From Prostheceraeus crozeri (taxonomy: Eukaryota > Platyhelminthes > Polycladida > Euryleptidae): a stretch of 64,000 bases of DNA. The stretch is taken from assembly GCA_907163375.1 (NCBI GenBank), contig CAJQUW010003430.1, forward strand, positions 62,001 to 126,000, read 5' to 3'. The translations under genes were made by a program, and so were the position numbers. Positions 2,549 through 60,824 of this stretch are shown piece by piece. A model generated the notes under the pieces. It made no database searches, was not told the origin of the DNA, and was given only the letters and a program-made list of their open reading frames with translations. Every line of letters begins with the position of its first letter. Position 1 is the stretch's first letter.

Positions 2549-5500
2549 ATCTCTTGTCAGCTACGTGTGTTTTGCGAATTGTGAACTCGAAAGAATCATA
2601 AGAAACTTATATACATAGGGTTATTGGTTTAACTACGCGTGCAAATGTTTGCAAAATGCTCTCAGAAAGTCAGCCTACAGCTCTCGGCCTACACTTTTGG
2701 AGAACGCCATCCCGGTATTGTTATTCATTCATAGATATCCCTGCTAGTACACATCTGAAGTATTATCGATGAAGAGAGCAAAGTAATTTAAACTGTGTGC
2801 TAAATGAATATTCAGCAGTGCTTACTGTAAAGTAATTGCAATTACGTCTCAGTTACATTGCTAAATATGTATTTGACAAAAATTGCAAATTGCTTATCAG
2901 AAAATGTTATTGATTACATTTTCCAATTACAGTAATTGTAATAGCAATTTGCGACACAAGTCTGATAAAACTTTCACACCCACTTGCTCTTCATCACGGC
3001 CAATGAACAGTTCGTCACGCATGTAAGCAGGAAGAAAATACAACAATACATGTATATACAGTGAAGCAATATACAAAATTGGATTCATCGCTAGTGAAGA
3101 TTAATTCATGACTTAGCGCATTTTGTCTCGACAAGCAATTATTAGTTAAGATTTGAGAAGAATACGTGGCTAATCCGACTAAGTGGACAGAAAGCGGGCA
3201 TTGTCGTCTTCGATCCAACAATTCTCCGTCCAACGCCATTTGTCAGCATGCCAGATCATGTGAACGCTTCTCGAAACGCATTTTTTCTCTTACTTCATTA
3301 TTTTGCGTTCTCTCAGGTCCTCATTTCTTCTACCCATTTTAGAGCCATTGTATACATCTAATTACAGTTCTGAACTTTTTATTCTCAAAGACTTAAAAAC
3401 AATTTGAGTTTACCTTGGTTTTAGCCTTCTCTTGTTGTCATGATTTAACTTTATATAGTCTTTTTTTACTGTTGTGTCTGCTGCTGCAGTGCTCAGATAT
3501 CATGCCAGTATTGCCCGAATGTCATTTGTCCGCTGACTATGCGGGTCCAATGAACTGTAGTTAAGTAAATTCTGTACATTTACTTGTTAAAACGGTTCTG
3601 CTGAAGAGAGGCCGCGAAATAGCTATCGGTATCATAAAAAATGCACTGTTCTTCTATAATTGGCCACAAATATTGCTTTAAAGTAATCCGACTAAGTTCA
3701 GACAAAGTGCCCTTTCACTTTTATACTGGAATTCGTGGCTGCTTTACTGCCAGAAAAATTGAAATGTCGCTTGCCGATGACTTGACTCAAACAACATTCA
3801 TGGCAGAACATACATGTATGACGTATCAGCAAGTTTCTACCCCGCGCTGACCAAATCAGAAATGACTCAAATGAATGCCTATTTCTATTGAATTGACAAT
3901 TATCAGCATCTTATCTGAAATGGTTTAGATTAATCTTTCGCAAAGTCCTTCACCACATAGCATGTATCAATTCTGACTTGATTTTGAAAGAATTACTCAC
4001 TATCATGGATATCATTTTGACCCTACGTACATTGTTGAACTGTATTTATTTCATGAGGAGATGAAAAAACTAAATCACCGATGGATGTACAGAAACATAC
4101 GCATGCGCTCTGATCTATTGAACTATAATTCATACAAATATGAAACAGCACTTATCAGCAATACAAAACACACACTTAATGCGTCAGATGTAAATGAAAA
4201 TTCTCGTGAAAGATTCCTGTGAAATTCAGAACCATCAGAATAACAGGTTGGCCGCGCAAGTTCGAAAAATTGTGTTTATTTCGGCTCTATATGTGACATG
4301 CCATGCTAATTCAAGTAAACCAAAATAAACAAATCAATATGCTGGCAATCGTATGGATTATGCTTCGCAGTGGTTATGCAATATGTTACTGATATTCGTG
4401 ACAAGATCTTTCGACTGCTCTACATTTCAGAGAATTAAGAAAGTATTCGAATCTGAAAAATAAGAATCAGTATTGCACGTCAAAAACTGTGTAACAGATT
4501 GAATAAGAAACAAATCCAGGAATAATACAAATTAAATGATCATCCTACTTCAGATAATGAAATATGCTTTCGTTCTTTTCAGTGAACGGGTAAAAGGGTG
4601 AAAGATACTATGTAGAATAAATGTTATCGAACTTCATCCCCATATCAATGAGCAAAAGAAGTAATTGCTCATCTGATTAAAGTCATCTAACGCAGTTGAC
4701 CAAACGACGGCAGATCATATTCATACTGAAAGCCAAAAACACTAAGTAAAGTCCCCTTTTTTTGTAAGGTTGATATCTGTTCTGTTGGCCTATAATTTAA
4801 CGTGTACCGAAGACTGTGAGAAGACAATACAAATCATGTAGAGATTACATTGATTTATGGTATTTCACATCATTGATGAGTTAGACAAAATGGAACTCTA
4901 ATTTGGATTTTTCATTAATCTAAACTTGGGAGAGTAAGATGAGCCTATACGCAAAGTCGTCTCTCAGTAGAATGAGAGGCAAGTAGAAAAGTAAATGAAG
5001 AAATAAAAAGCAATTAAAAGGGCATAGAATTATAATTGCACTATTGAATAAAATCAGGTCATATTGAATACATTTACAGAAACTGGAATGATTTTTCATC
5101 ATTTCATTCATTATATTGGTAGATTTTGATGGCAACTGCATTTGTCATCTGTACTGAGGCCACAACTTTCATGTTTCAAATCGCCTCTTCGTGTTTCCAA
5201 TTGATTCAATGTCTAATAATTCGTTCAAATTTGCTTTATGACTGCTGACTCATTGCTCATTGCCATTTTGATACTTATGTATCAATTTCTGATTTATCAC
5301 TCGCGAATTCAATGCATGCTACATTAAAGAGAAATGTCAGTTTCAGTGACAGATTCGTTCGTCATTAAAACCTTAAATTCAAGCATGATAGAAAGGCATC
5401 GATGAGAACAGATTGTAAGCAACATATTCTTGTGACTCTTGAAAGTACTTGTTTGCAACAAGTCGGCGTTTGAGAATTCAGAGGTTAACGAGTGCATCAT

Positions 5501-5958
5501 GACCTGACAGGCGATGACCTCATGCGAGCAACACACCACCGATTCTCTTGCCATCTGTTCATTTGGCATTGGTAAACATTGCAATATTTATTCATTTGGC
5601 ATGTCGCATTCTCAAAATGACACTATGGAATATTACCTTTGATTTAGCTCCTCGATTGTAGTCTCTTTTCACACTTAAGCTTCACACAAACAGTCACACT
5701 GAATACGCGGACACCCAAAATACGATGGCAATTCTCTCAAGGTTAAATGGTTGGTAGCCCTTCGGTGAAACAGATGACACATCCACAGACACAATCTTAA
5801 ACACGCGACACGCTACTGCTGCAAGGGGTCAAGGGACCGTCAGGTACTGAGGGGAGGAACTAGCTCACAATGCGGATGATTTCCGTACACCTGACATTGG
5901 CTAACCACAGGTCCCAAGGTTTGATCTGCGAAGAGGACACGATGTCGATTAAAAATGT
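2549..5958. other. no gene recognised; A/T-rich spacer
   Basis: No open frame here resembles a known protein. At 2816-2955 there is a run of alternating AATTAC / GTAATT words in both orientations, as in the ends of some hAT-type MITEs, but no clean terminal repeats or target duplication could be fixed. The rest looks like ordinary A/T-rich noncoding DNA. Confidence 0.4.
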
Positions 5959-6090
5959 TCACTTTTTTCGCAATACGATCACCTCCTCTTCCAATACCAT
6001 GAGTTCCATTCTCCGCTTCTTGATTTCTGCCTCTTTCAACGCCAATTCTTGGGCCGCCCTCTTACGCTCTCTTACTGCCGCGTCATCGTC
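5959..6090 (-). pseudogene. C-terminal coiled-coil coding remnant
   Basis: On the minus strand a 43-residue frame reads DDDAAVRERKRAAQELAL, then a charged heptad-like helix rich in E, K, R and L, ending VLRKK and a TGA stop at 5959. A TAA codon sits directly before the DDD, so this is only the end of a longer broken frame or an exon. Short charged coiled-coil tails of this kind close many Myb/SANT-like transposon-accessory proteins; that assignment is inference. Upstream on the same strand lies the duplicated segment at 6163-6362, which encodes a repeated peptide. No start codon or full domain can be seen. Confidence 0.35.
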
Positions 6091-6162
6091 TTACTGAGCG
6101 AAGCTTCATGAAAACCGAAAGTAACTCTTTTTGTAACAAGACTTTTCAAAAGGGAGATAGTC

Positions 6163-6362
6163 CCTCACACACTTAACAGTTTCTGGGTTTCCATCAGTAG
6201 GTACGCGGCGACCTGGACCCCTCACAGCTTGCTGTTGACACTCTTTGATCACTCTTGGTCATAAGACTGAACAAAACCTCACACACTTAGCAATTTCTGG
6301 ATTTCCATCAGTAGGTACATGGCGCTCTGAACCCCTCACAGTTCGCGGTTGACACTCATTGG
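6163..6362 (-). repeat. 114-bp imperfect tandem duplication
   Basis: Two diverged copies lie head to tail, offset by 114 bases (6163-6276 and 6277-6362). Both contain CACACACTTA, TTTCCATCAGTAGGTAC and CCCCTCACAG. Read on the minus strand both encode a motif like VRG..R.VPTDGNPE..KCVR, and this lies just upstream of the coiled-coil remnant at 5959-6090. It may be a duplicated coding exon of a decayed gene. Confidence 0.7.
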
Positions 6363-6699
6363 TTACCGGATCTCTTCACATTTAGCAGTCAGATGTTTCA
6401 CACCTATCACCGTCACAGGGTTGACTACTACCAACGTTATTGTGAATACAACCTATGTTCGAAAAGGAGATACATGTAAGTGCACCTTCGCCGTTTTTTG
6501 AAAACATGAGATATCTTTTCAAGTTACGGTCGTATGTACTAGACCCGCAGATAGTAAGAAAGTAGAGAAAATAAACACAACAGACTACACTTAATAACAT
6601 ATACCACCCAATACTACTAAAAATGGTAAGTTATGTTCAAACGGCAGAGACTGTTTTTAACCATTATGTTTCGAATTCCAAAGTATTATCTTCATCTCC

Positions 6700-6790
6700 A
6701 TTTTCCCTGTCTTTTCCCGGTTTTCCCTGTCATTTTAAAATTCCCTGTCTTTTCCCGGTTTTCTGGTCGGTATACACCCTGCATTGGATG
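6700..6790 (-). repeat. possible hAT-type element end
   Basis: The minus strand begins CAGGGTGTATACC and then has three runs of the type AAACCGGGAAAAGACAGGGAA. Termini starting CAGGGTGT followed by repeated CCGGGAA words are common in animal hAT elements. The opposite end was not found, so it may be a solo end. Confidence 0.35.
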
Positions 6791-6799
6791 ACTGTGTCT

Positions 6800-8400
6800 A
6801 AGCTGTCCTCAATATAGTCGTTTCTTCAACAGAATCAGTCTACTTCCTAACTAGTAAAATACGCCATGTTAATGGCAGGAGCTAACTGCGTGCCTACACA
6901 TTCCTCCAAGTGGCTGCATGAGAAGATAATGCAGCAGAGAATTTGAAAGTGCTACGAAAATGCAGGAAAAGGACGTAGTATCGCTTGCAAAATTGCAAAA
7001 GGCAAATAAATCACATTTATTTGTAAACATAATTAATTACTGATTCAATTGTCTTCCGAAAAAAATCACATGTCAACATCATAATTGGAGTCAGCGTGTG
7101 TCCTATCGATAACATTAGTTCTGAATGTTCGAATTGAACGTCTCGATTTCTCGGGTCAGGAGCGTCCGTAACCTTGGACGAGGAAATCTTGATGTCCTTT
7201 ACGTATTTCCTTTAAATCCTCGTAGCTTGGCAAGTTAAGATGCTGATTCTCATCGCCTTATTAGGTCAGGACCAGTCATGAATTTCATCTAGTTATGTTC
7301 CATATATCAACAACCGATCACATGACATCAAATTACCGTTATGACGTCAATGCCTGACTAGTAAGTATTATCACATTCGTCACCTTTTAATGAAAGGATA
7401 ACAGTAAGATGGCGATGTGATGTTGAATGCATAAATTGCTATAATTTTATCATCAATCCTAGATTCATGATTTCGTGTAATGATCACCATGACTGTTCGG
7501 TTTCAGGTCTCATGCGGGCTGTATATCCAGTTTCGATTATATTATTAGAGATATATTTGTACCGGCACACGTTTTTCAGATAACCAACTTTTTGAAACTG
7601 AGATTGTCCCATTTGAAACATATTCTTAATGATTACATTCATTCAGTAAAACACTTTTTCCGCGAAAACGAAAATCGTTCGCTGAGGACTTTTTTATTTA
7701 CAGTGATTTTTTGAATTTTTCAAATTTTGATTCAAATTTAAAAAATCTTGAAAAATAAAAGAAATTGTCCTATTATTGAATTTTCAGCTTTTGTTGATGA
7801 CATTGCCGTCGCTAATGCAACTCCGTACTGAAATTCATCTTCAAATTCATCCTTTCAATGATTTTGGAGATTGGTATGATGCATGGCTTTTGTGGATAAG
7901 ATACTTTGCTTGGAGGGGAAGCCCAAACTCAGCTAGCGGAAATGTAGGTTGATAATCTTATGACCTTATTGCCTTTCATTCCTAGCACAAGGTATGCATT
8001 CATGGAACGAAGGAACAATAGTATCATTGTTAAATGATCCGAAGAAATGCTACATGTAGACTAAATTTAGAAATGTCATTGATCTATGGACGGGTTTCTA
8101 TTTTTGGTTGCATGAAAGACAATATTTACGTACATTAAAACTGATCAAATATAATGTCCTTCAATTGACAGCCATTAAAAATTGAAATGAAATTTAACTG
8201 AATTTAAGTGACAGTTATCAACAAATCACCAAAACTCAAACAAATAGCGTAAATCGATGACAATCAAAATGGCACACACATTGCTTCTAACGTGAGAGAT
8301 TTTTTGGTATCTAATTAAATTAAGCTAACTAATTACGCTCTTTACTTTAACATTGTAACAGAAATCGTAGATTGTCGGGATTTATTGTTTCACAACACTC
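6800..8400. other. no gene recognised; A/T-rich spacer
   Basis: I see no supported gene, repeat array or terminal repeats. It lies on the 3' side of the minus-strand GPCR exons, so exons encoding the missing TM5-TM7 might be expected here. I could not recognise any. Confidence 0.35.
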
Positions 8401-8404
8401 CTGT

Positions 8405-8600
8405 TCCGAAAAAATGAGGTCCAACGTCACTAATCCCAATACTGGGGCTTGGATAGCGCTGAGACTTTCAGTCCGGGGCGTTGTGATCTTTTAGCCCGGA
8501 TGCCCTTCCTGACGACTTCCAATGACACTTTCGGGGCTCAACTTCTAGACCGAAAGATCGTTAGATCAAGCACCTAACCACTATCCCACAGAGACTACAA
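8405..8600 (-). repeat. tRNA-derived SINE, copy 1
   Basis: Read on the minus strand it starts with an A-box-like GGGATAGTGGTTAGGTGC, then a B-box-like GTTGAGCCCC. A core containing GAAGTCGTCAGGAAGGGC and GCATCCGGGC follows, then TAAAAGATCACAACGC and a 3' part with GTGACGTTGGACCTCATT. Related copies lie at 16362-16530 and 43120-43205. The A/B-box head plus shared body is the layout of a tRNA-derived SINE moved by LINE machinery. It is too diverged from a tRNA, and lacks a cloverleaf, to be a working tRNA gene. Confidence 0.7.
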
Positions 8601-11829: not shown

Positions 11830-12618
11830 ACGTCAAAACATACATAGGCATCGCAATTTAGTAACGAATCTTAATACCAAAACAAATCATTTAGAGGGTA
11901 CGCACTGTTTCGCCTTACTTTTGTCAGTCTCCAATGATTACGTAAACCGATATAATAGTTTAAACAATAGATTGTCTATAAACGATACAGGATACACATG
12001 AACAAGGCTTAAGAAAAATAATAATAATATCGTCTACTTCACATGCACAACAACTATACAAATTGCGATTTAAAAAAACAAGATTATTGACAAAACATAT
12101 TGAGACAAAACTTAGTAAGGCCTACAAGCAGTAAGAACACACGGGAATACGCATGGAAAAATATGAAGACGACTTCCAATTAAAAGTCACTAATGATCAA
12201 TTTTACTTTGAGAACACAAAGGAATACTGTTGAATAGTGTGAATGTAGTGGATGCTAAATCTGCCATTCCACCCTACGCTCCTGATTACGATATCATTCA
12301 AATAACTATTCTGAGCACTTAGCCAGTTAGCCTACACACACGCAAATGTGGATTGCATTTATATTCAATCAAAGACACGTACAATAAATGAGCTATTGTA
12401 AAAGGTAACCTAGACAATCAGTGTAGATTCTACTATCGGATTGACAACTCTGAAATGCTCAATATTGCCTCAACAGCTACAGACAACTACACGTTGCCTC
12501 TCTAATAGCATCCAATAATGTTTGAAGCTTTTAATGGATAGACCTTGCTGTTGTGCGGAAAAAAAATTGCGCATGTGAAACCTTCATTCCATGATCCTGA
12601 AAATCGGCTGTTCACTAA
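11830..12618. other. no gene recognised
   Basis: Ordinary mixed-composition noncoding sequence up to the abrupt start of the G/T-rich block. I see no repeats or coding signal. Confidence 0.35.
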
Positions 12619-13545
12619 TGCATGTTTTGATGTGATGGTGGGTTGATGTGATATTGGTTTGTTTGCTGGTGTTTGTGTGGGTTTGGATATTTGGTGTGTT
12701 TTTGTGTGGGTTGTGTGGGTTGGGCGGTGTTGTGGTGGGGTCGGCTTTGTTGTGTTGGGAGTTTCTGTGTCATGATTGTGTGGAGTTTGTTGATGACAGT
12801 TGGGGTTGGTTCAGGGTTGTTTGTGGGGTGTGTGTCTAACTATTGTGTGTTTGGGTTGTTGTGTTTTAGGTGAATTGTGTTGGTGGTGGGTTTTGTGTGT
12901 GGCAGGTTGGGGGTGGGTGGTGGTGTGGGAGGTGTGGTTGGGTGGTGGGGTGATTGTGTGGTGGTGTATGATTGGGGTGGTGGGTGTGGCGCTGTGAGTT
13001 GGTTTTGGGGTGTTTTGTGGTGGTGAATTGGGTTTGTCTTTGTGTGGTGAGTTGGGTGGTGTGATTTGTGTGATTTTGATTTGTGATGCATCAATTGTGT
13101 GGGGGTTGATTGTGGGGTGTGTGCTTGTGTGGGTGGGTATTGTGTGTTGTGGTGGTGTTGTGCTGTGGGGTGGAGTGGGGTAGTGTTTGGTTATTTTGTT
13201 GTTGAATTGTGTGTGCTTTTGTGGCATATTGGGTGATTTTGTGGTGTGTGGTGGGGTTGTGGTGGTGGTGTTTGTGGTTGTTTGGGTGGTTTGTGTGGGG
13301 TCGGGATTGGGTGGTGCGTGTGGGTTGTGTGGGATGCATATTGGTGGTGTGGTTGGCTGTGGGTGGGGTGTGGTGGTGGTGGGTTGATTTTTGTGGTTGA
13401 ATTGGATGATGGGGGTGATTGATGGTGTGGTGGTGGGTCGGGTGTGTGGGAATTATGTGGGTTGTATGTTGTGAATGTGGTGGAGTGGTGGTGTGTTGAA
13501 TAATTTGTGGTGTGTGCTTGTTGGGTAATTGTGGTTGACTCGACG
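12619..13545. repeat. 0.9-kb G/T-rich low-complexity block
   Basis: The + strand is made almost entirely of G and T, with words such as TGTGTGGG, GGTGGTG and TTGTGTGG. C and A are rare throughout, and composition changes sharply at both edges. It is not a simple (TG)n repeat: unit length drifts constantly. Frequent GGG and GGTGG runs give it G-quadruplex potential on the + strand. Long open frames on both strands here, which would be Gly/Val/Trp-rich or His/Pro/Thr-rich proteins, are by-products of the composition and are not listed as genes. Confidence 0.85.
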
Positions 13546-14614
13546 TGTCATGATCGTTCAGTTTAGTTATTACTTCACTTCTTTCTTAACATCCTTCAAC
13601 GAATCAGTCTCATCATCAGAGAACAGACATAGAAACGCAAGGTTGTCAGATATTGAGAGCTGGTGACGAAGTTTCAGATTTTATCAGTTCCTTGATATTT
13701 CCGGAAGACTTATAATTGACACGCTCGGTAGCCATCAGAATACCGACAACTACTCATTGGTATACATCGAGCCACACAGCATTTTCTTGAACTAATGACT
13801 AGATTAGGATTCCCATGGTTTGGCGAGTTAATTTTCAATGAAGAAATCAAGGATCGTCAAGGGTTTCAATCATAGAAATATACTGTTTATCTGAAGTTCG
13901 CTAGAATGGAAATTGACTCAAGGTTGCGGCACATCTGGGGGAACTAAGTTGGGGCATGAAGAACCAATTAAAAGCTTCGATTTACTCATGTGACTGATTC
14001 TAACCCAATGATACAGACGTTGGCAGGTGCATCTAAGTGAGAATGCGTGCGATTTATGTGCCGTTATTGTGCATTGCATGAAGCTTAATTTCCATTCTAG
14101 AGGTTTTATTGTTGTCAATTTCTATGGTTTCAATCAATTTAATCGGGCTAATGTTGTGCATACATAAGCATTCACATAACACAGCAAATTTTATTCCTTT
14201 CAATTCAAAATCGTATGAGCATGAGTACATAATGTGGCAATACATGGAAATAGCTAGCAAAAAGATACTAGATTCGAATTTTTGAGATCTCTGTGGTTGG
14301 TAGTATTTTTAAAATTCCAGTGGCATGAAATCGTTTACAGAGGTCTTTTGCATTAAGTCGGATTTAATAAATCGTCCCAGTAGCTAATTCATAAGCAAAC
14401 AAAAGTGCCATCATGATCAAAATGGTAGCACCGGTTTGTCAGTCTGACATTCTTTGAATTGAATAAAAAATCATGATCAAAGCAATTGAATGACAACACC
14501 ACTATTTTCCGAAATTCATTTTGAAGAATTTCAATATTTTTCGAAATTCAATGGGTTTCCTGACTTTGAATTATGTTTTTTATGATTCAAGGGTTTACGA
14601 CGGGCGCGGGAACC
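13546..14614. other. no gene recognised
   Basis: Normal base composition returns here. I see no coding segment that I can support and no repeat with clear ends. Confidence 0.35.
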
Positions 14615-14622
14615 CTGTAGAT

Positions 14623-24840: not shown

Positions 24841-25030
24841 GACATCAATGAAATAATGCCACATAGCATTCACTTCAAAAAATATTTCATCATCAATGTG
24901 ACGCCTGCTTCTACCAAACTATTGAAATAACCGGAATATTTCATCGCCGCCTTCTGGTCGAGGAAATTTGCACACTACTGTCAATTATGAGGGTAAAAAA
25001 TGGGCATCTTTTTCAAAATATCTCATGATT

Positions 25031-25107
25031 TTTAATGATGCTGTCACATGACATAGAATTTCTTTTAATGCCATTTTATTAGTGGCCCATCATCAAACAG
25101 CTAAAAA
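25031..25107 (+). repeat. 75-bp direct repeat, copy 1
   Basis: Contains TTTTAATGATGCTGTC, GACATAGAATTTC, TTTAATGCCATT and AGTGGCCCATCAT. A close copy lies in the same orientation at 26624-26701, about 1.6 kb away. The H2B-like frame starts 40 bases downstream of copy 1. Confidence 0.8.
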
Positions 25108-25146
25108 CAAAACATCATGTGCTACAAAATGGAATTCTGATTCGCA

Positions 25147-25566
25147 ATGGCACCGAAAGTATCTGGCAAAGCCGGAAAGAAGTCTAGCAAGGCTAAGGCC
25201 CCTGACAAGCAACGCAAGCGTAAGCGTAAGGAGTGCTATGCCATCTATATCTACAAGGTACTCTGTCAGGTGCACCCCAACACTGGCATCTTCAGCAAGG
25301 CCATGTCAATCATGAACAGTTTCGTGAATGACATCTTCGAGCGAATTTCCAACGAGAGCAGCCGACTTGCTCACTACAACAAGAAGTCGACTGTCTCCAC
25401 ACGGGAGATTCATACTGCCGTTCGCTTTCTTCTGCCCGGTGAACTCCTGCCAAACCTTGATAGTGCGAGCCGGCTCGCGAAAGCTCGGAATTGTACATAA
25501 CTTTTAGCAAATAGACTGTACATATTTTTAGCAGCTTATCTTTTTTCGGGGAGACGACACAAGCGG
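25147..25566 (+). pseudogene. H2B: histone H2B, decayed C-terminus
   Basis: Core nucleosome protein sequence. [12 protein letters not shown] is the canonical animal H2B start. A basic tail and the histone fold follow: [55 protein letters not shown] and RFLLPGEL. Differences from the usual sequence include Cys for Ser in KECYAIY and VLCQVHP where Lys is normal. After GEL the frame departs from the family. The expected AK...E...K..TKYTSSK tail can be traced in the +2 frame as A-K-P, two stops, C-E-P-A-R and finally F-S-K, ending near 25566, so an indel plus nonsense changes removed the C-terminal helix and its ubiquitination lysine. No histone stem-loop was found downstream. A divergent functional variant is possible but less likely. 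Confidence 0.8.
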
Positions 25567-25569
25567 AAG

Positions 25570-26620
25570 TGAGATTCACTATGAAATTAAACAACCTCCC
25601 GTCAGCTGCCATCAACTAGTGCTCTAAGTATTGTAGTACCCCAGCTCACAGGATTCCGAAAAAATCAGTATTATCCATGTTTAAAGAGTGGTCACAAATT
25701 TCGTAAAAAAAAGAAGTCTTCGTAAACCTTATGAATGCCTTATCTCTTGGCCTAATTCTTGTCTGAATCTTTTGTGTGTGATTTAACCTTTGTGAATACA
25801 CCCCTATTCACGGTGGTCACGTCCGTGTTGCTCACTTTCAAAAATTACACACCAGAAGATTATTTGCTTAAAACGTTTTAACACTGAATTAAGTAGCCAA
25901 AAAAATCACCAATTGTGTAAATTCAAAGTGGCTTCATATTTCGGAGTTCATCATTTTTGCAAACACGGAGTTACGGATGCACGGTGTCATTAATTGCTAT
26001 CTGCAATCATGTGCATATCAGGATCAGACAGGTCGTATCTATTATGATATAATGAAATGGCAAACGCCACATACTTGTCTGATTTCATGCAATAAGCCGT
26101 CACTGAATAACCAGCAAGTTTTGGACATCATCCAGTCACGTGCGTGTAACCTGCACTACAATATCACTTCGTGTGCTTCGGTCACACTATCGCACTACCG
26201 TTTATTATGAATTCAGCAAAGAGATTGAGCGAAGTAAATTTCTCACGCTTGTCAACTTCTAAACAAAGAATCTGACGAAACAACATTATCGAGACAGGAC
26301 AGTTGTACGAATGATCTGAATTCTCCGAATCTGCAGGAATCATGTTGATCGGAGGGAGCATTTTGAAGGAATTTACAGCAATCTGCAAGCGACGGACGAC
26401 TACCTTCTTCTGATCACTGTGAGGCATTAAGAATTCTTTTCCGCTACTGAACTTGCCACCGTTTTCAATAAGTCAAGACTTCTAGTAAACTGAATCAGTT
26501 AAACAATCTAATTGTATGGTTACGGGTGACATTTCAAGTAATTTCGAGTACCGTCATGATGCATCACTCACCTGGTTTCTACTTTTGGTATTTGCATCCC
26601 GCCTGGGAATCATAATCTAT
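25570..26620. other. no gene recognised
   Basis: Sequence between the H2B pseudogene and the second direct-repeat copy. The frames at 25977-26210 (+) and 26182-26427 (-) are not recognisable. If the direct repeats are duplication scars, this whole interval with H2B would be the inserted or duplicated unit. Confidence 0.3.
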
Positions 26621-26623
26621 TCA

Positions 26624-26701
26624 ATTTTAATGATGCTGTCGCACGACATAGAATTTCATTTAATGCCATTCTATGAGTGGCCCATCATAAAACAGTTAAA
26701 A
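26624..26701 (+). repeat. 75-bp direct repeat, copy 2
   Basis: Close copy of 25031-25107 with a few substitutions (for example GTCGCACGACATAG for GTCACATGACATAG). It is followed by AAAAGCTTAATC instead of the H2B leader. Confidence 0.8.
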
Positions 26702-26709
26702 AAGCTTAA

Positions 26710-36430: not shown

Positions 36431-36511
36431 ATCTGTTAATTAGAAAACACATACTACTTATAAATTTGATGGTAGCAGCACAAAAAAACAAGCCAATTTT
36501 ACCACATTTTC
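36431..36511. repeat. 81-bp inverted repeat, right arm
   Basis: Inverse copy of 34624-34704, ending CCACATTTTC. It abuts the 230-bp tandem duplication that follows. Confidence 0.75.
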
Positions 36512-36960
36512 CTGATTTTTTTTCTTTTGATTAAATTCTTTTCATGATAGTACTGTTTCAATAATTTAAATGGTTGTTTGATATGAAATTGACCTTTCCG
36601 AGGCTCGTAGTGGATGGTCTGTTGTTTGTTTAGGGTACCATTACAATACGTAATGGCATAATGATACACTCAGGTTGCGATTCCAAACTGTCCTCTAATG
36701 ATTTCGATTAAGCAAAATACTATTGTGGCTTCCTGATTTTCCTGATTTTTTTTCTTTTGATTAAATTCTTTTCATGATAGTACTGTTTCAATAATTTAAA
36801 TGGTTGTTTGATATGAAATTGACCTTTCCGAGGCTCGTAGTGGATGGTCTGTTGTTTGTTTAGGGTACCATTACAATACGTAATGGCATAATGATACACT
36901 CAGGTTGCGATTCCAAACTGTCCTCTAATGATTTCGATTAAGCAAAATACTATTGTGGCT
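36507..36960 (+). repeat. exact tandem duplication, period 230 bp
   Basis: 36507-36730 and 36737-36960 are the same at every base I compared, offset by exactly 230. Both end AAGCAAAATACTATTGTGGCT. Identity without any change means a very recent duplication or an assembly artefact. Confidence 0.95.
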
Positions 36961-45255: not shown

Positions 45256-45266
45256 ATGGAGATGAA

Positions 45267-46829
45267 GCGTGTGTGAAGTTAGCGGAACCACCCAGCGGAA
45301 CCATTTTTTGTTATAGCTTAATTCTATTCGAAACAGCTGCTAGTTTGTCAATTTCAGTCTCCTGATTATGAATCTGAGCTCAGATTTCACAAATTAACAG
45401 TCGTTTTTGAGAAAATCAAGTTTGAAGATAAAAGTGGTTCCGCTGTGAAGTTAGCGGAACCATCCAGCGGAACCAATTGCTGAGTCTCGCTGATTGACGC
45501 AGTAAATCAATTTCTTTTGGTCACTACCCGATCAATTTTGTTGTGCTGATCACGAATATGTGCCTCATCTTTCAAAACAATGCAGATTTCACCCGGAAAT
45601 CTGAACTTCACTTTTTCTGTAAGCTGATTGTGAAGTTAGCGGAACCATTTTTTAATACAAAGAATTTTTCAGGAAAAAATCCATCCTCTCCTACTTATTT
45701 TGAAGCTCCTAATCACAAATCTGTAATCAGATTTGCAAAACTCGCCCGCATTGCAAAGATATTCGTCTATGTGGGTCCGCTGTGAAGTTCGCGGAACCAC
45801 CTACTGGCATTAAAATTTCAAATTCTAATTTTTGCAGAGAATCACTGCAATAGACATACCAAGAGAATGGAATTGCTTCACTGATCACGGTTTGCCGTCC
45901 GACTTCATGGGAGGATAAGTACTTGCCGAGAAAAATTGATTTTATGGTTTTCATGGACTTTTCTGCAAGCTGATTGTGAAGTTAGCGGAACCATTTTTTA
46001 ATACAAAGAATTTCTCAGCAAAATCCATCCTGTCCTACTAATTTGAAGCTCCAAATCACAAATCTGTAATCGAATTTGCAAAACTTGCCCGCATTGCAAA
46101 GATATTCCTCTATGTGGGTCCGCTGAGATTCCGATGAAATCCTTGAAAACCGTAAAATCAATTTTTCTCGGCAAGTACTTATCCTCCCATGAAGTCGGAC
46201 GGCAAACCGTGATCAGTGAAGCAATTCCATTCTCTTGGTATGTCTATTGCAGTGATTCTCTGCAAAAATTAGAATTTGAAATTTTAATGCCAGTAGGTGG
46301 TTCCGCGAACTTCACAGCGGACCCACATAGACGAATATCTTTGCAATGCGGGCGAGTTTTGCAAATCTGATTACAGATTTGTGATTAGGAGCTTCAAAAT
46401 AAGTAGGAGAGGATGGATTTTTTCCTGAAAAATTCTTTGTATTAAAAAATGGTTCCGCTAACTTCACAATCAGCTTACAGAAAAAGTGAAGTTCAGATTT
46501 CCGGGTGAAATCTGCATTGTTTTGAAAGATGAGGCACATATTCGTGATCAGCACAACAAAATTGATCGGGTAGTGACCAAAAGAAATTGATTTACTGCGT
46601 CAATCAGCGAGACTCAGCAATTGGTTCCGCTGGATGGTTCCGCTAACTTCACAGCGGAACCACTTTTATCTTCAAACTTGATTTTCTCAAAAACGACTGT
46701 TAATTTGTGAAATCTGAGCTCAGATTCATAATCAGGAGACTGAAATTGACAAACTAGCAGCTGTTTCGAATAGAATTAAGCTATAACAAAAAATGGTTCC
46801 GCTGGGTGGTTCCGCTAACTTCACACACG
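45267..46829. mobile_element. fold-back element, 690-bp near-identical arms
   Basis: Arms 45268-45957 and 46140-46829 are inverted copies with almost no differences; translated frames in the two arms are identical over 80 residues. The 182-bp spacer (45958-46139) is itself a diverged copy of 45605-45785. The words TGAAGTTAGCGGAACC and GGTTCCGCT recur about every 150-195 bases (45273, 45444, 45630, 45781 variant, 45976). A 10-bp direct repeat TGGAGATGAA flanks it (45257-45266 and 46830-46839). Long terminal inverted repeats with a 9-10 bp duplication are known for Mutator-like and Foldback elements. No transposase domain is present, so it would be non-autonomous. The class assignment is inference; the structure is seen directly. 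Confidence 0.9.
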
Positions 46830-47095
46830 TGGAGATGAACTATCTGTTGATCTACCTCTTCATAGAGCTCAAGAAACAATGGCGATCTGTATCCATTTTC
46901 CACATGGAAAACTATTATGTTCCTGTAACAATATTATAATAACTAAACGAAAGGAAGATGAGGGAAGGGTTCCTCCTTGAATTGACGACCACCTCAACAG
47001 CACAAAGTAAGTTTTCATCATATTTATTCTTGCCATATAAATATGCAAATTCTAAATTACTAAATGTATTGATTTAATTACCTTCTAATGCTAGC

Positions 47096-47100
47096 ATGCA
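47096..47100 (+). repeat. 5-bp target duplication, left (ATGCA)
   Basis: ATGCA directly before the CAGGGTTCCC end. ATGCA follows the right end at 52815-52819. Confidence 0.75.
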
Positions 47101-47544
47101 CAGGGTTCCCGCGGCCCTTGAAAACCCTTAAATTTTTAAAAAACAAATTCAAGGCCTTGAATACCCTTGAATTTTGAAATCGCCCTTGAAAACCCTTGAA
47201 TTTTGATGAAGTCATCAATTTCAATATTTTGCGTGTCAAGATTTTGATGTGGTCTACATATCATGTAACACAAATCACTTAATTTTGAAAATGAATATGA
47301 ATATATCTATTAATTAAGCTAGCTGCTTTAATCGGTTTACTCACTTCATCGTTTTCAGATGGTGTTTGCAGCATTAAAGGTCGGCTATATTGTTATTGAT
47401 GTTGACTTCTGGCTTGTAGAGCATTCCAATCTATGAAAAATGAATATGCTGATGACATCTCAATAGCCGAGAAATTTTCAGTTACATTGTTGAAGTAACT
47501 GATGGGATTGTGAACAGTGAACACAAACATTGAAAACAAGACTA

Positions 47545-51676: not shown

Positions 51677-52814
51677 GATTATAGCAATCATAAGAGTAGA
51701 TGGCAGCATTCTACAACTAATCATTGTATTGGAAAAAAGAACAAATGGGTTCGAAAATTTTTAATGGGTTTAGCTCCTTAGAAATGCTGAAGTCTCCTTG
51801 GAAGTTATTTTTATCATCAAATAACCAAATTTAAGCCTATGTATTTAAACTCAGATGCAACATTTAATATACGAGTATGTGCAGTAAATCATTGGAAAGT
51901 TATTGATTTTGATCAACTGTCTCAAAATTATCTTGACGTGAAATAGTTAGATAAATTCAATGACCAACTTTACTCTACTCCATACCACAATACCTACGCA
52001 TGAAAGGAAATATATTTTTTAGTTACATTTTGTTCTTTCAGTCATCCATTGAATGTGCTGAAAGGCTGAGGAGAATGCCGATTTGACCTTGGTGTCGAAA
52101 TCAAATGCTATGCGACGAAGGGCCAGCGAGAAAAAGGAAGAGCTCTCTTCTATCAACGTCGAACTCAATAAACTTAAATCTGTCTGATTCATTCACGATT
52201 ACTAAGCTTTCATGATCTGATCTACGCATACGCATTTTGTTATCCATCAAAGTTGTTACGAATTTAATCAGAACTTCTTTATCAATTTTTTTCATGAGAG
52301 TTGTTAATCCTGAACTGTATTGTTATGATCTGAGATTTTTTAGAGTTTATTAAAAAGCTGTAACCACTGAGATTTTTTTCACAATCATTCACATGTACTA
52401 ACTCTTGTTTAAGTCAAAATAGCTTTCTCATTTGCGTGGAGGGATTACACATGTAATGCCTCTACATGTTATACAATTCCGCAGGTAATTTGTGTTCGAA
52501 GTTGGCAACCAACGCGATAACACATTTTGCGTTATTAACCTATAATTGTCCCGTTTGTTAACTGCTGCCGTCAAGTCGGCTACGACGTCTAACCAGTATG
52601 ACACATCTGTCGCTGCCGCTTCTGGCCGCCTCATAGATCTTTAACTGAATATTCAAGTATTTAACATATATTTCAATTGATTTTCTACTCATTTTGATAT
52701 GTAAAAATGATCTATTGAATCATGGAAAAATCAAATTTACGTTACCCTTGAAAATTATTGATTTTGCCCTTGAAAACCCTTGAATTTTTTATTCGAAAAG
52801 CCGCGGGAACCCTG

Positions 52815-55938: not shown

Positions 55939-57480
55939 ATGGATAGAGGTCCACACTATTCAATCAGAGATCTGGTGAGAAATCGCAACCGAAGGGTCGA
56001 TAATTTTTGGAGAGAGATCTTTAACTTAAAGACGCCTAGCCATCAATCGAAATATCCATGTATCACACCTGTGATCAAAAGTTCCTTAATACTTCCCCAC
56101 GGAAACGCAGACGTGGAGAGGTCGCTATCCAACAACATTTCTCTCGTCACACGAGAGGGCACTCTACTCGTGGAAAATGTTATTAACGGACACCGGCAAC
56201 CAAAGATACAGTTCACTTTTGTGACCCTCAACCAGGGATGCGGAGTCGGAGTCCTATCATTTTTGCTGGAGTAGGAGTCGGAGTCCTATCAAATGATAGG
56301 ACTCCGAACTCCGGACTATCATTAGACACGAAATATAATACAAGCAAATTGCTTATTTTCGTACATATAGCTGTTACTGTCTTGATATCAACTTTCTCCG
56401 TCAAACAAAAGTACAGAGACACTGCTGTATGCAAATCTTCTAATAGTTGAGGGAATGAACCGTGATAGTGGAAAAAGGATTGTCTTTTCACCAGGTGATT
56501 TAGTAGAGAAGACAAGCCTTCCTAGCCTCGATCACACCTATGCACCAAAGGTCACATCAGAGACAAAAATGAAATACTAGTTTGTTTGAGAACATTATCC
56601 TCTTGCCCTCACATCAATCGTGTGTGATGGGTCCTCTAAAGCGCATATTTTAAATAGAAGGTGTACTCATATTTTTTGAGAAGGATGGGGATTTTCCTGC
56701 CTGGTAGAGACTGGAGAAAAACCTTGTGAAGCACACATCAAGAAGATGGGAGGAGCCGAGTCGTATTCATCCAACTGAAAGCGACATTTGATGAACTTTC
56801 ATCGAAAATGATTGATAATTGATACAGCAATGATCCCTGAAAATAGGTTCAGGTAAGCCTATAATGATCTGTGATGTAGGTTGACAGTTTTTTCAAAAAA
56901 ATAGGCTTTATATACTTGCCACCCGGAGTCGGAGTCCTATCAAAATGATAGGACTCCGCATCCCTGCCCTCAACGGAATCGCCTTGAAAAACTGCCAATT
57001 GCAAATAAAAGTAATCAATGCTGCTAGATGTGCTCAATCTGAGTGTATAAGGAGACAAGAAATTGAACGCAAAAGGGAAGGAAGAGGAAAAGGAAAGAAT
57101 AGAAAAGGAAAATGCTCAACGAGCGATTTTTGGAGAAGGAGAGGGATCAAATGAAAAAGCAGAAGATAAGTCTCGAGGAGAAGGAAGAAGTATTAATCAG
57201 TAAAGAGAAAAACACGAACACGTACTTTTAGCAGCACAAGAACTATTAAATGATGGAAGCAACAAAAATCAAGACTTGCTATATAGGAAGGCGCTTTACA
57301 ACATGTCGCCACGGCTCAATTGAGGATTGAGACAGGATAAAAAAGACAAAAGAATGCACTGAGGCACTAGAAAAATTATTCCAGAAATACAGAAAACTAG
57401 TCGACCGAAAACGCAAACTTTTAGATAGGGATTCATGTTGGCTGGAATCCGTGAAAAAGATGAAAACTATCAACAAAATA
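55939..57480 (+). pseudogene. hAT transposase C-terminus, split by a MITE
   Basis: The frame before the MITE has SKYPCITPVIKSSLILPHGN then ADVERSLSNNISLVTREGTL, which is the hAT dimerisation motif (HG.A.VERSLS.N). After the MITE (56233-56966) the sequence resumes at the duplicated CCCTCAAC with residues QIKVINAARCAQSECIRRQE and a basic coiled coil (ERKREGRGKGKNRKG). Further decayed charged helix words (KECTEALEKLFQKYRKLVDR) run to 57480. The N-terminal two thirds is missing. It is similar in layout to the hAT at 49.5-51.7 kb but not the same copy. Confidence 0.75.
56233..56966. mobile_element. hAT MITE copy A, 734 bp
   Basis: Ends CAGGGATGCGGAGTCGGAG and, inverted, CAGGGATGCGGAGTCC. Perfect 8-bp duplication CCCTCAAC at 56225-56232 and 56967-56974. 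Near both ends GGAGTC and its inverse recur many times. It splits a hAT transposase dimerisation domain. A nearly identical second copy lies at 59887-60812. Not coding. Confidence 0.95.
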
Positions 57481-59886: not shown

Positions 59887-60812
59887 CAGGGATGCGGAGT
59901 CAGAGTCTTATCATTTTTGCTGGAGTAGGAGTCGGAGTCGGAGTCTTATCAAATAATATGACTCCGGACTCCGGCCTATAACTAGACCTGAGATACAATA
60001 CAAACAAATTATTTATCCTCGTACATAGCTGTCACTGTCTTGATGTCAACTTTCTCCGTCAAACAAAAGTACGGAGACACTGCTGTATGCAAATCTTCTA
60101 ATAGTTGAGGGAATGAACCGTGATAGTGGAAAAAGGATTGTCTTTTCACCAGGTGATTTAGTAGAGAAGACAAGCCTTCCTAGCCTCGATCACACGTATG
60201 CACCAAAGGTCACATCAGAGACAAAAATGAAATACTAGTTTGTTTGAGAACATTATCCTCTTGCCCTCACATCAATCGTGTGTGATGGGTCCTCTAAAGC
60301 GCATTTCATTGAATAACGGGCTAGCCATTTAAGTTCAACTATGACGGAAGAAGCCCAGGACTGGTGTTCGTCGTTGTTTATTACGAAGCACTTAAGCACG
60401 TAATAAACAACGACGAACACCAGTCCTGGGCTTCTTCCGTCATAGTTGATCTAAAGCGCATATTTTAAATAGAAGGTGTACTCATATTTTTTGAGAAGGA
60501 TGGGGATTTTCCTGCCTGGTAGAGACTGGAGAAAAACCTTGTGAAGCACACATCAAGAAGATGGGAGGAGCCGAGTCGTATGCATCCAACTGAAAGCGAC
60601 ATTTGATAAACTTTCATCGAAAATGATTGATAAAGCAATGATCACTAAAGATAGGTTCAGGTAAGCCTATCTTCTATGATGTAGGTTGACAGTTTTTCAA
60701 AAAAACTAGGCTTTATATACTTGCCACCCGGAGTCGGAGTCATATCAAAAGCCGGAGTCCTATCAACCCCGGAGTCGGATTCCTATCAAAATGATAGGAC
60801 TCCGCATCCCTG
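59887..60812. mobile_element. hAT MITE copy B, 926 bp
   Basis: Same family as copy A (56233-56966), with long stretches identical or nearly so. Target duplication CTTTACAT at 59879-59886 and 60813-60820, exact. It is longer than copy A because of a 157-bp gain (hairpin insert plus duplicated target) at 60305-60461 and an extra GGAGTC-type repeat unit near 60740-60775. Confidence 0.95.
60305..60449. mobile_element. 145-bp insert with perfect 51-bp hairpin
   Basis: Insertion within MITE copy B, absent from copy A. TCTAAAGCGCAT (12 bp) is present on both sides (60293-60304 and 60450-60461) but once in copy A, so it is a target duplication. The insert begins with 30 unique bases. Then arms 60335-60385 and 60399-60449 are perfect inverted copies of 51 bases around a 13-base loop. 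The right arm ends exactly at the duplication. Confidence 0.93.
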
Positions 60813-60824
60813 CTTTACATGTAT

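Follow-up and report, generated by a model that had tools for sequence, protein, structure and literature searches.

Within the window, the whole stretch of 64,000 nt that we analysed, we delimited a foldback element at positions 45267–46830. Its left arm (45268–45960, forward strand) and right arm (46137–46829, reverse strand), which we took from the inverted-repeat listing and compared position by position, are inverse copies of 693 nt each with 690 identical positions; no difference occurs in the outer 677, and the three that exist are all at the inner end. This pair is the longest among the inverted repeats listed for the window, and the 176 nt between the arms (45961–46136) form an asymmetric spacer. 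The original prediction had described a self-inverse sequence of ~1.56 kb with near-identical 690-bp arms and a spacer made of a third, diverged copy of an arm segment. Both descriptions held, the spacer copy (45975–46121) being 92.0% identical to 45629–45780 over 150 columns. A BLAST search of the 64-kb window found no second copy of the element, and Rfam at gathering scores and a tRNA scan (bacterial code) gave no matches.

The arm consists of four units, all on the forward strand and each with TGTGAAGTTAGCGGAACC or a near-match at its opening: U1 (45272–45443), U2 (45444–45628), U3 (45629–45780), and U4 (45781–45974). A fifth, U5 (45975–46121, forward strand), lies in the spacer, so that unit starts follow one another in steps of 172, 185, 152, and 194 bp, in line with the predicted recurrence of a motif every 150–195 bp. 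U5 is a 92% copy of U3 and the remnant of a second U3-U4 module, which in longer copies stands in tandem at 343-bp steps; it is nearer to the U5 of three other copies (L009, 98.0%; L011, 97.3%; L012, 96.6%) than to the U3 of its own element. The idea that the units clearly descend by divergence from a single ancestor was rejected, as the bodies of U1–U4 are at most weakly similar when judged against shuffles and the U3-U5 likeness alone is clear. Sites matching AGCGGAACCA with at most one mismatch number 19 in the window, 18 of them inside the element (shuffle mean 1.98, maximum 6, 100 shuffles). They occur there in both orientations and, a point that the prediction did not mention, some face each other as dyads, such as the two sites at 45436–45461 (GGTTCCGC TGTGAAGTTA GCGGAACC), which have a mirror copy at 46636–46661. 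At all 15 sites counted in the window element the core reads GCGGAACC.

We searched the host assembly (2.05 Gb, 14,165 contigs) with the arm and found a large family, with at least 147 arm matches; these come from the 40 scored among 1,927 first-look candidates, making the copy number a lower bound. The copies we examined, given below by their locus numbers, comprised 20 regions, 30 loci found by terminus search (some overlapping earlier ones), and three further long copies, which together represent the best-scoring part of the family and not a random sample. Searches of phages, plasmids, and, with an exact 18-base pattern, viral contigs gave no match to the family. Among the papers listed by literature searches no description of it was seen, and those listed for the motif strings had apparently unrelated titles; we took these hits as chance primer strings.

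Family copies start with ACGTGTGTGAAG and finish with CACACGT, and these termini (ACGTGTG...CACACGT) set the extent of the window element, whose first base is G where the family has A. Since the other copies end in this way, the T at 46830 is the last base of the element and the T at 45257 is a chance match. The 10-bp flanking direct repeat of the original prediction is therefore a 9-bp target-site duplication, GGAGATGAA, at 45258–45266 and 46831–46839, as defined by comparison of the flanks and by the termini of other copies. When we looked for such a match at the same distance, with 0–2 bases of slack per side, a 9-bp match occurred at 4 of 62,200 window starts, the element's own position included. 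The joined flanks of the window element, as a proxy for an empty site, matched only the window locus and short repeats among the window and the retrieved loci.

Both outer ends and flanks could be read in 29 elements. The census leaves out the overlapping loci (L029–L033, L039, and L042), inner-site pairings, one locus with its right flank beyond the locus (L046), and three with an outer end outside the locus (L040, L022, and L061). The duplication was exact over 9 bp in 18 of the 29 (the window element, L009, L012, L014, L016, L020, L021, L023, L024, L025, L026, L037, L048, L049, L055, L058, L059, and L060), and five more had near duplications: exact 10 bp in L010, exact 8 bp in L018, and 9 bp with one mismatch in L041, L044, and L047. 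In the remaining six it was doubtful or missing, with two mismatches in L035 and L054, none in L017, L036, and L043, and mirrored flanks in L028. Other copies with duplications of 9–10 bp, for which the original prediction had proposed to look, thus exist, and a general lack of them, which it had named as grounds for rejection, was not what we found. The predicted fold-back element is accordingly transposable, as its target duplication and numerous genomic copies show, and the insertion at 45267–46830 is an ordinary example of its kind. We also observed that the flanks of the L043 copy (1500–2713), which has no 9-bp duplication, share a 42-bp direct similarity (95%), and that the copy in L026 (1506–4553, duplication CTTTATCCG) interrupts a reading frame, leaving two pieces with matches to Endonuclease_7 and DNA_pol_B_2.

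Where the window copy came from is shown by long relatives of 4.8–9.6 kb (L022, L023, L028, L059, and L060), in which U1-U2-(U3-U4)n is followed by a 499-bp inner domain, a central foldback of a sister family, and then the mirror image; the window copy differs from them by a central deletion. Its right arm extends as far as the inner-domain edge (TTTCATCGGAATCTCAG) and continues directly with U5, which identifies the copy as a central deletion derivative. The junction between U5 and the inner-domain edge lies at 46116–46142, where three bases (CTG, read by eye) are assignable to either side. We found this junction, with at most two bases changed or missing, at ten distinct places (the window, L009, L010, L011, L012, L015, L016, L043, L048, and L049), and those junction-bearing copies that have exact duplications have duplications that differ from each other, so the deletion derivative moved as a unit.

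These observations bear on two explanations that need no transposition of the window copy. A fold-over during assembly or sequencing can yield perfect long arms, and one copy resembles such an event: in L028 (G000:C1746:1-8500) the flanks 10–1000 and 5493–6482 form a 991-bp inverted repeat (99.9%) that extends to the beginning of the contig; the assembly probably turned back at the palindrome. The window copy, against this, has unlike flanks with a 9-bp duplication, an asymmetric spacer, and a junction that recurs at nine other places, and we regard an artefact, which the original prediction had wanted checked, as excluded here for practical purposes. An inverted duplication that arose locally and stayed in place would fit the near-identical arms too; it is refuted by the target duplication, the common termini, and the junction at ten places, and we give it almost no credence at all.

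The long copies also showed how the arms vary in length. The U3-U4 module is 343 bp long and is repeated head-to-tail in up to 13 tandem copies, that number being reached in L061 (2240–6700), where the modules form a satellite-like array. In L022, whose left end lies beyond its locus, the covered part of the left arm holds nine full modules; of eight that were compared, six differ by 0–1 bases and the other two, which were compared out of register, match each other. Outer arms, inner domain, and sister are found together in L023, L059, and L060, all three of which have a 9-bp duplication. The right arm of the 9.6-kb foldback L059 contains a nested DDE_Tnp_1_7 transposase (6652–8469) with a zf-Tnp_2 zinc finger; from its name we take the transposase to be of the piggyBac type.

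In 10 of the 13 elements in which both arms were long enough, the nearest arm to each arm was its own partner, the exceptions with a nearer arm elsewhere being L023, L028, and L049. A tree built from 54 arms groups the window element's two arms as a pair (100/96), which share a branch of length 0.0059. This fits the suggestion of the original prediction that the likeness of the arms reflects a recent insertion or gene conversion. Conversion between the arms is consistent with these data but is not proved by them, because the shared changes could be present in source copies outside the sample.

The sister foldback at the centre of the long copies has the terminus ACGTGTGTGAAG of the outer family (one base is changed at the left end of the L059 sister). 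Its flanks are mutually inverse in L022, L023, and L059, so that in these copies it occupies the centre of the palindrome and has no separate duplication. In these three copies, from which we took the totals (L028 was excluded for its mirrored flanks), the sister sites read GCGCAACC at 35 of 36 (L059, 12/12; L023, 12/13, with one GCGAAACC; L022, 11/11) and never GCGGAACC, whereas the outer arms read GCGGAACC at 46 of 46 (18, 12, and 16 sites in L059, L023, and L022, respectively) and never GCGCAACC. The counts cover only sites of the form GCGNAACC, so that decayed sites such as GCGCGACC in the L059 sister drop out, as do part of the U4 sites (CCGGAACC in 26 arms). The window arm and the L028 sister agree in the positions of their first four sites (15, 28, 169 in reverse, and 187); in the L023 sister the first sites are at 15, 28, 166, and 184, and in that of L059 at 15, 162, and 180. 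Between the sites, the bodies of the window arm and the L028 sister are only weakly similar (z 4.2; one of 300 shuffles scored as high), and this, next to the matching layout, makes the array seem older than the split of the families.

The original prediction had proposed that the motif forms a transposase-binding array. The matched base switch in the sister speaks for this part of the claim, while within the family the motif columns are no better conserved than the rest of the sequence (0.959 versus 0.971), and we treat the binding as putative. The counts of 35 of 36 and 46 of 46, taken with the common layout of the first sites, suggest that putative binding arrays switched together. A tentative reading, to which we would give roughly one chance in three, is that the two are nested sister families with shared termini and site layout and with cores one base apart (GCGGAACC and GCGCAACC), whose arrays followed a change in transposase specificity as a unit, and that the long copies could be moved by either enzyme. 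It is also quite conceivable, at a little under even odds, that the array does not consist of binding sites, that the motifs are alike through duplication or gene conversion, and that the sister base was an accident fixed in one ancestor and then copied. The lack of extra conservation in the motif columns agrees with this, as do two sister units that are plain duplicates (z 20.3), owing to which the independent changes are fewer than the sites, and a 19-bp context common to sites 15 and 187 that could convert. Against it stands the layout of the first four sites, which the window arm shares with the L028 sister and, approximately, with L023, around a body of such weak similarity.

The architecture and the census together place the family among foldback transposons: long inverted repeats with internal repeats fill most of the element, and the dispersed copies have target-site duplications. 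The family also agrees with Mutator-like elements (MULEs), which are described as having long terminal inverted repeats (TIRs) and duplications of 8–10 bp (PMC5225508); here a duplication of 8–10 bp is exact in 20 of 29 elements and has one mismatch in three more, and the TIRs exceed 100 bp. We therefore think it probable (about 80%) that the window element belongs to a large non-autonomous family of foldback DNA transposons, whose cut-and-paste movement depends on a trans-acting transposase, most probably of the Mutator-like kind; the MULE assignment draws on duplication length and architecture and is provisional. No MULE domain was found in the 29 ORFs scanned, which are part of the ORFs present, and no transposase was found for L060 or L061: neither the L060 element nor L061 contains an ORF of at least 120 aa. 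L059, considered as an autonomous copy, was rejected; its transposase is the nested DDE_Tnp_1_7 one. In the mechanism that we propose, a MULE-like enzyme would act in trans on the non-autonomous foldback, binding the spaced GCGGAACC sites along the arms and cutting at the common end ACGTGTG. The likeness of the arms may be kept by hairpin-mediated copying or conversion, or the source copy may already have been symmetrical, and the U3-U4 array would grow by unequal exchange or slippage.

A foldback of the P superfamily, moved by a THAP transposase as Galileo is, would be another way to account for the element. The P element duplicates 8 bp at its target, and of the 7–8 bp that mark its superfamily we found a duplication of 8 bp in 1 of 29 copies. 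Fragments of P-like transposase (TNP-like RNase H) adjoin copies in L051 and L057 but lie outside the elements. Galileo of Drosophila resembles the present family in having long TIRs with internal tandem repeats, in which several transposase-binding sites have been demonstrated (PMC3688188), and TIRs that recruit inner sequence (PMC3688188, PMC3573991); it belongs to the P superfamily with duplications of 7 bp (PMC3573991), as opposed to 9 bp in 18 of 29 copies here. We consider this origin unlikely and keep the Mutator-like transposase as our preferred reading.

Among known systems, Tetris is the closest in architecture, followed by Tm1 and Muta1, and Galileo is the closest in possible mode of action. 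Tetris of Drosophila virilis is a non-autonomous foldback with duplications of 8–10 bp and a TIR that has an outer and an inner domain as well as ~220-bp tandem repeats in varying number; its repeats seed a satellite, and no transposase was found for it (PMC4079207). The present family is like it in these duplications, in being non-autonomous, and in its tandem repeats and inner domain, a likeness of architecture, and differs from it in the 343-bp U3-U4 module and in the sister foldback at the centre of the long copies. Tm1 of root-knot nematodes is likewise a foldback with composite TIRs, variable arm length, and mostly 9-bp duplications (8–10 bp in 45 of 53), and some copies carry a MULE-like transposase; its repeats are direct tandem repeats of 13–15 bp, whereas the sites here are 13–185 bp apart in both orientations, and its ends have asymmetric 7-bp motifs, whereas the ends here match each other (PMC3169594). 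Muta1 of Aedes aegypti, a MULE termed a type 2 foldback, is similar in its 8–9 bp duplications, subterminal repeats, and many non-autonomous derivatives, while the 145-bp TIR with 12-bp repeats and a transposase of its own are particular to Muta1 (PMC5225508). Galileo suggests that some transposons may retain kilobase hairpin arms packed with sites because the transposase binds at several of them (PMC3688188), and sister families with matching layout and switched sites, if real, would make that idea directly testable. With its 343-bp module the family, like Tetris, adds to the examples of transposons that build satellite-like arrays.

The rest of the window has further repeats. ORFs in the window include one for a LINE reverse transcriptase and others from transposons, and at 25020–26702 a histone-like ORF (25141–25500) stands beside sequence that recurs 1.6 kb further on (88%); together these ORFs point to a eukaryotic host, probably an invertebrate. 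A GT-rich stretch at 12502–13585 shows strong strand asymmetry and several short tandem repeats, and at 36506–36960 a 230-bp sequence is present in two perfect head-to-tail copies. A dispersed repeat rich in CGGAGTCGGAGTCCTATC occurs in two copies, 56268–56967 and 59928–60813, that are 83–99% alike in blocks. Repeats of the CCCTTGAAAACCCTTGAATTTTG type are found at 14539–14618, 47100–47206, and 52743–52788, one of them directly to the right of the foldback element.
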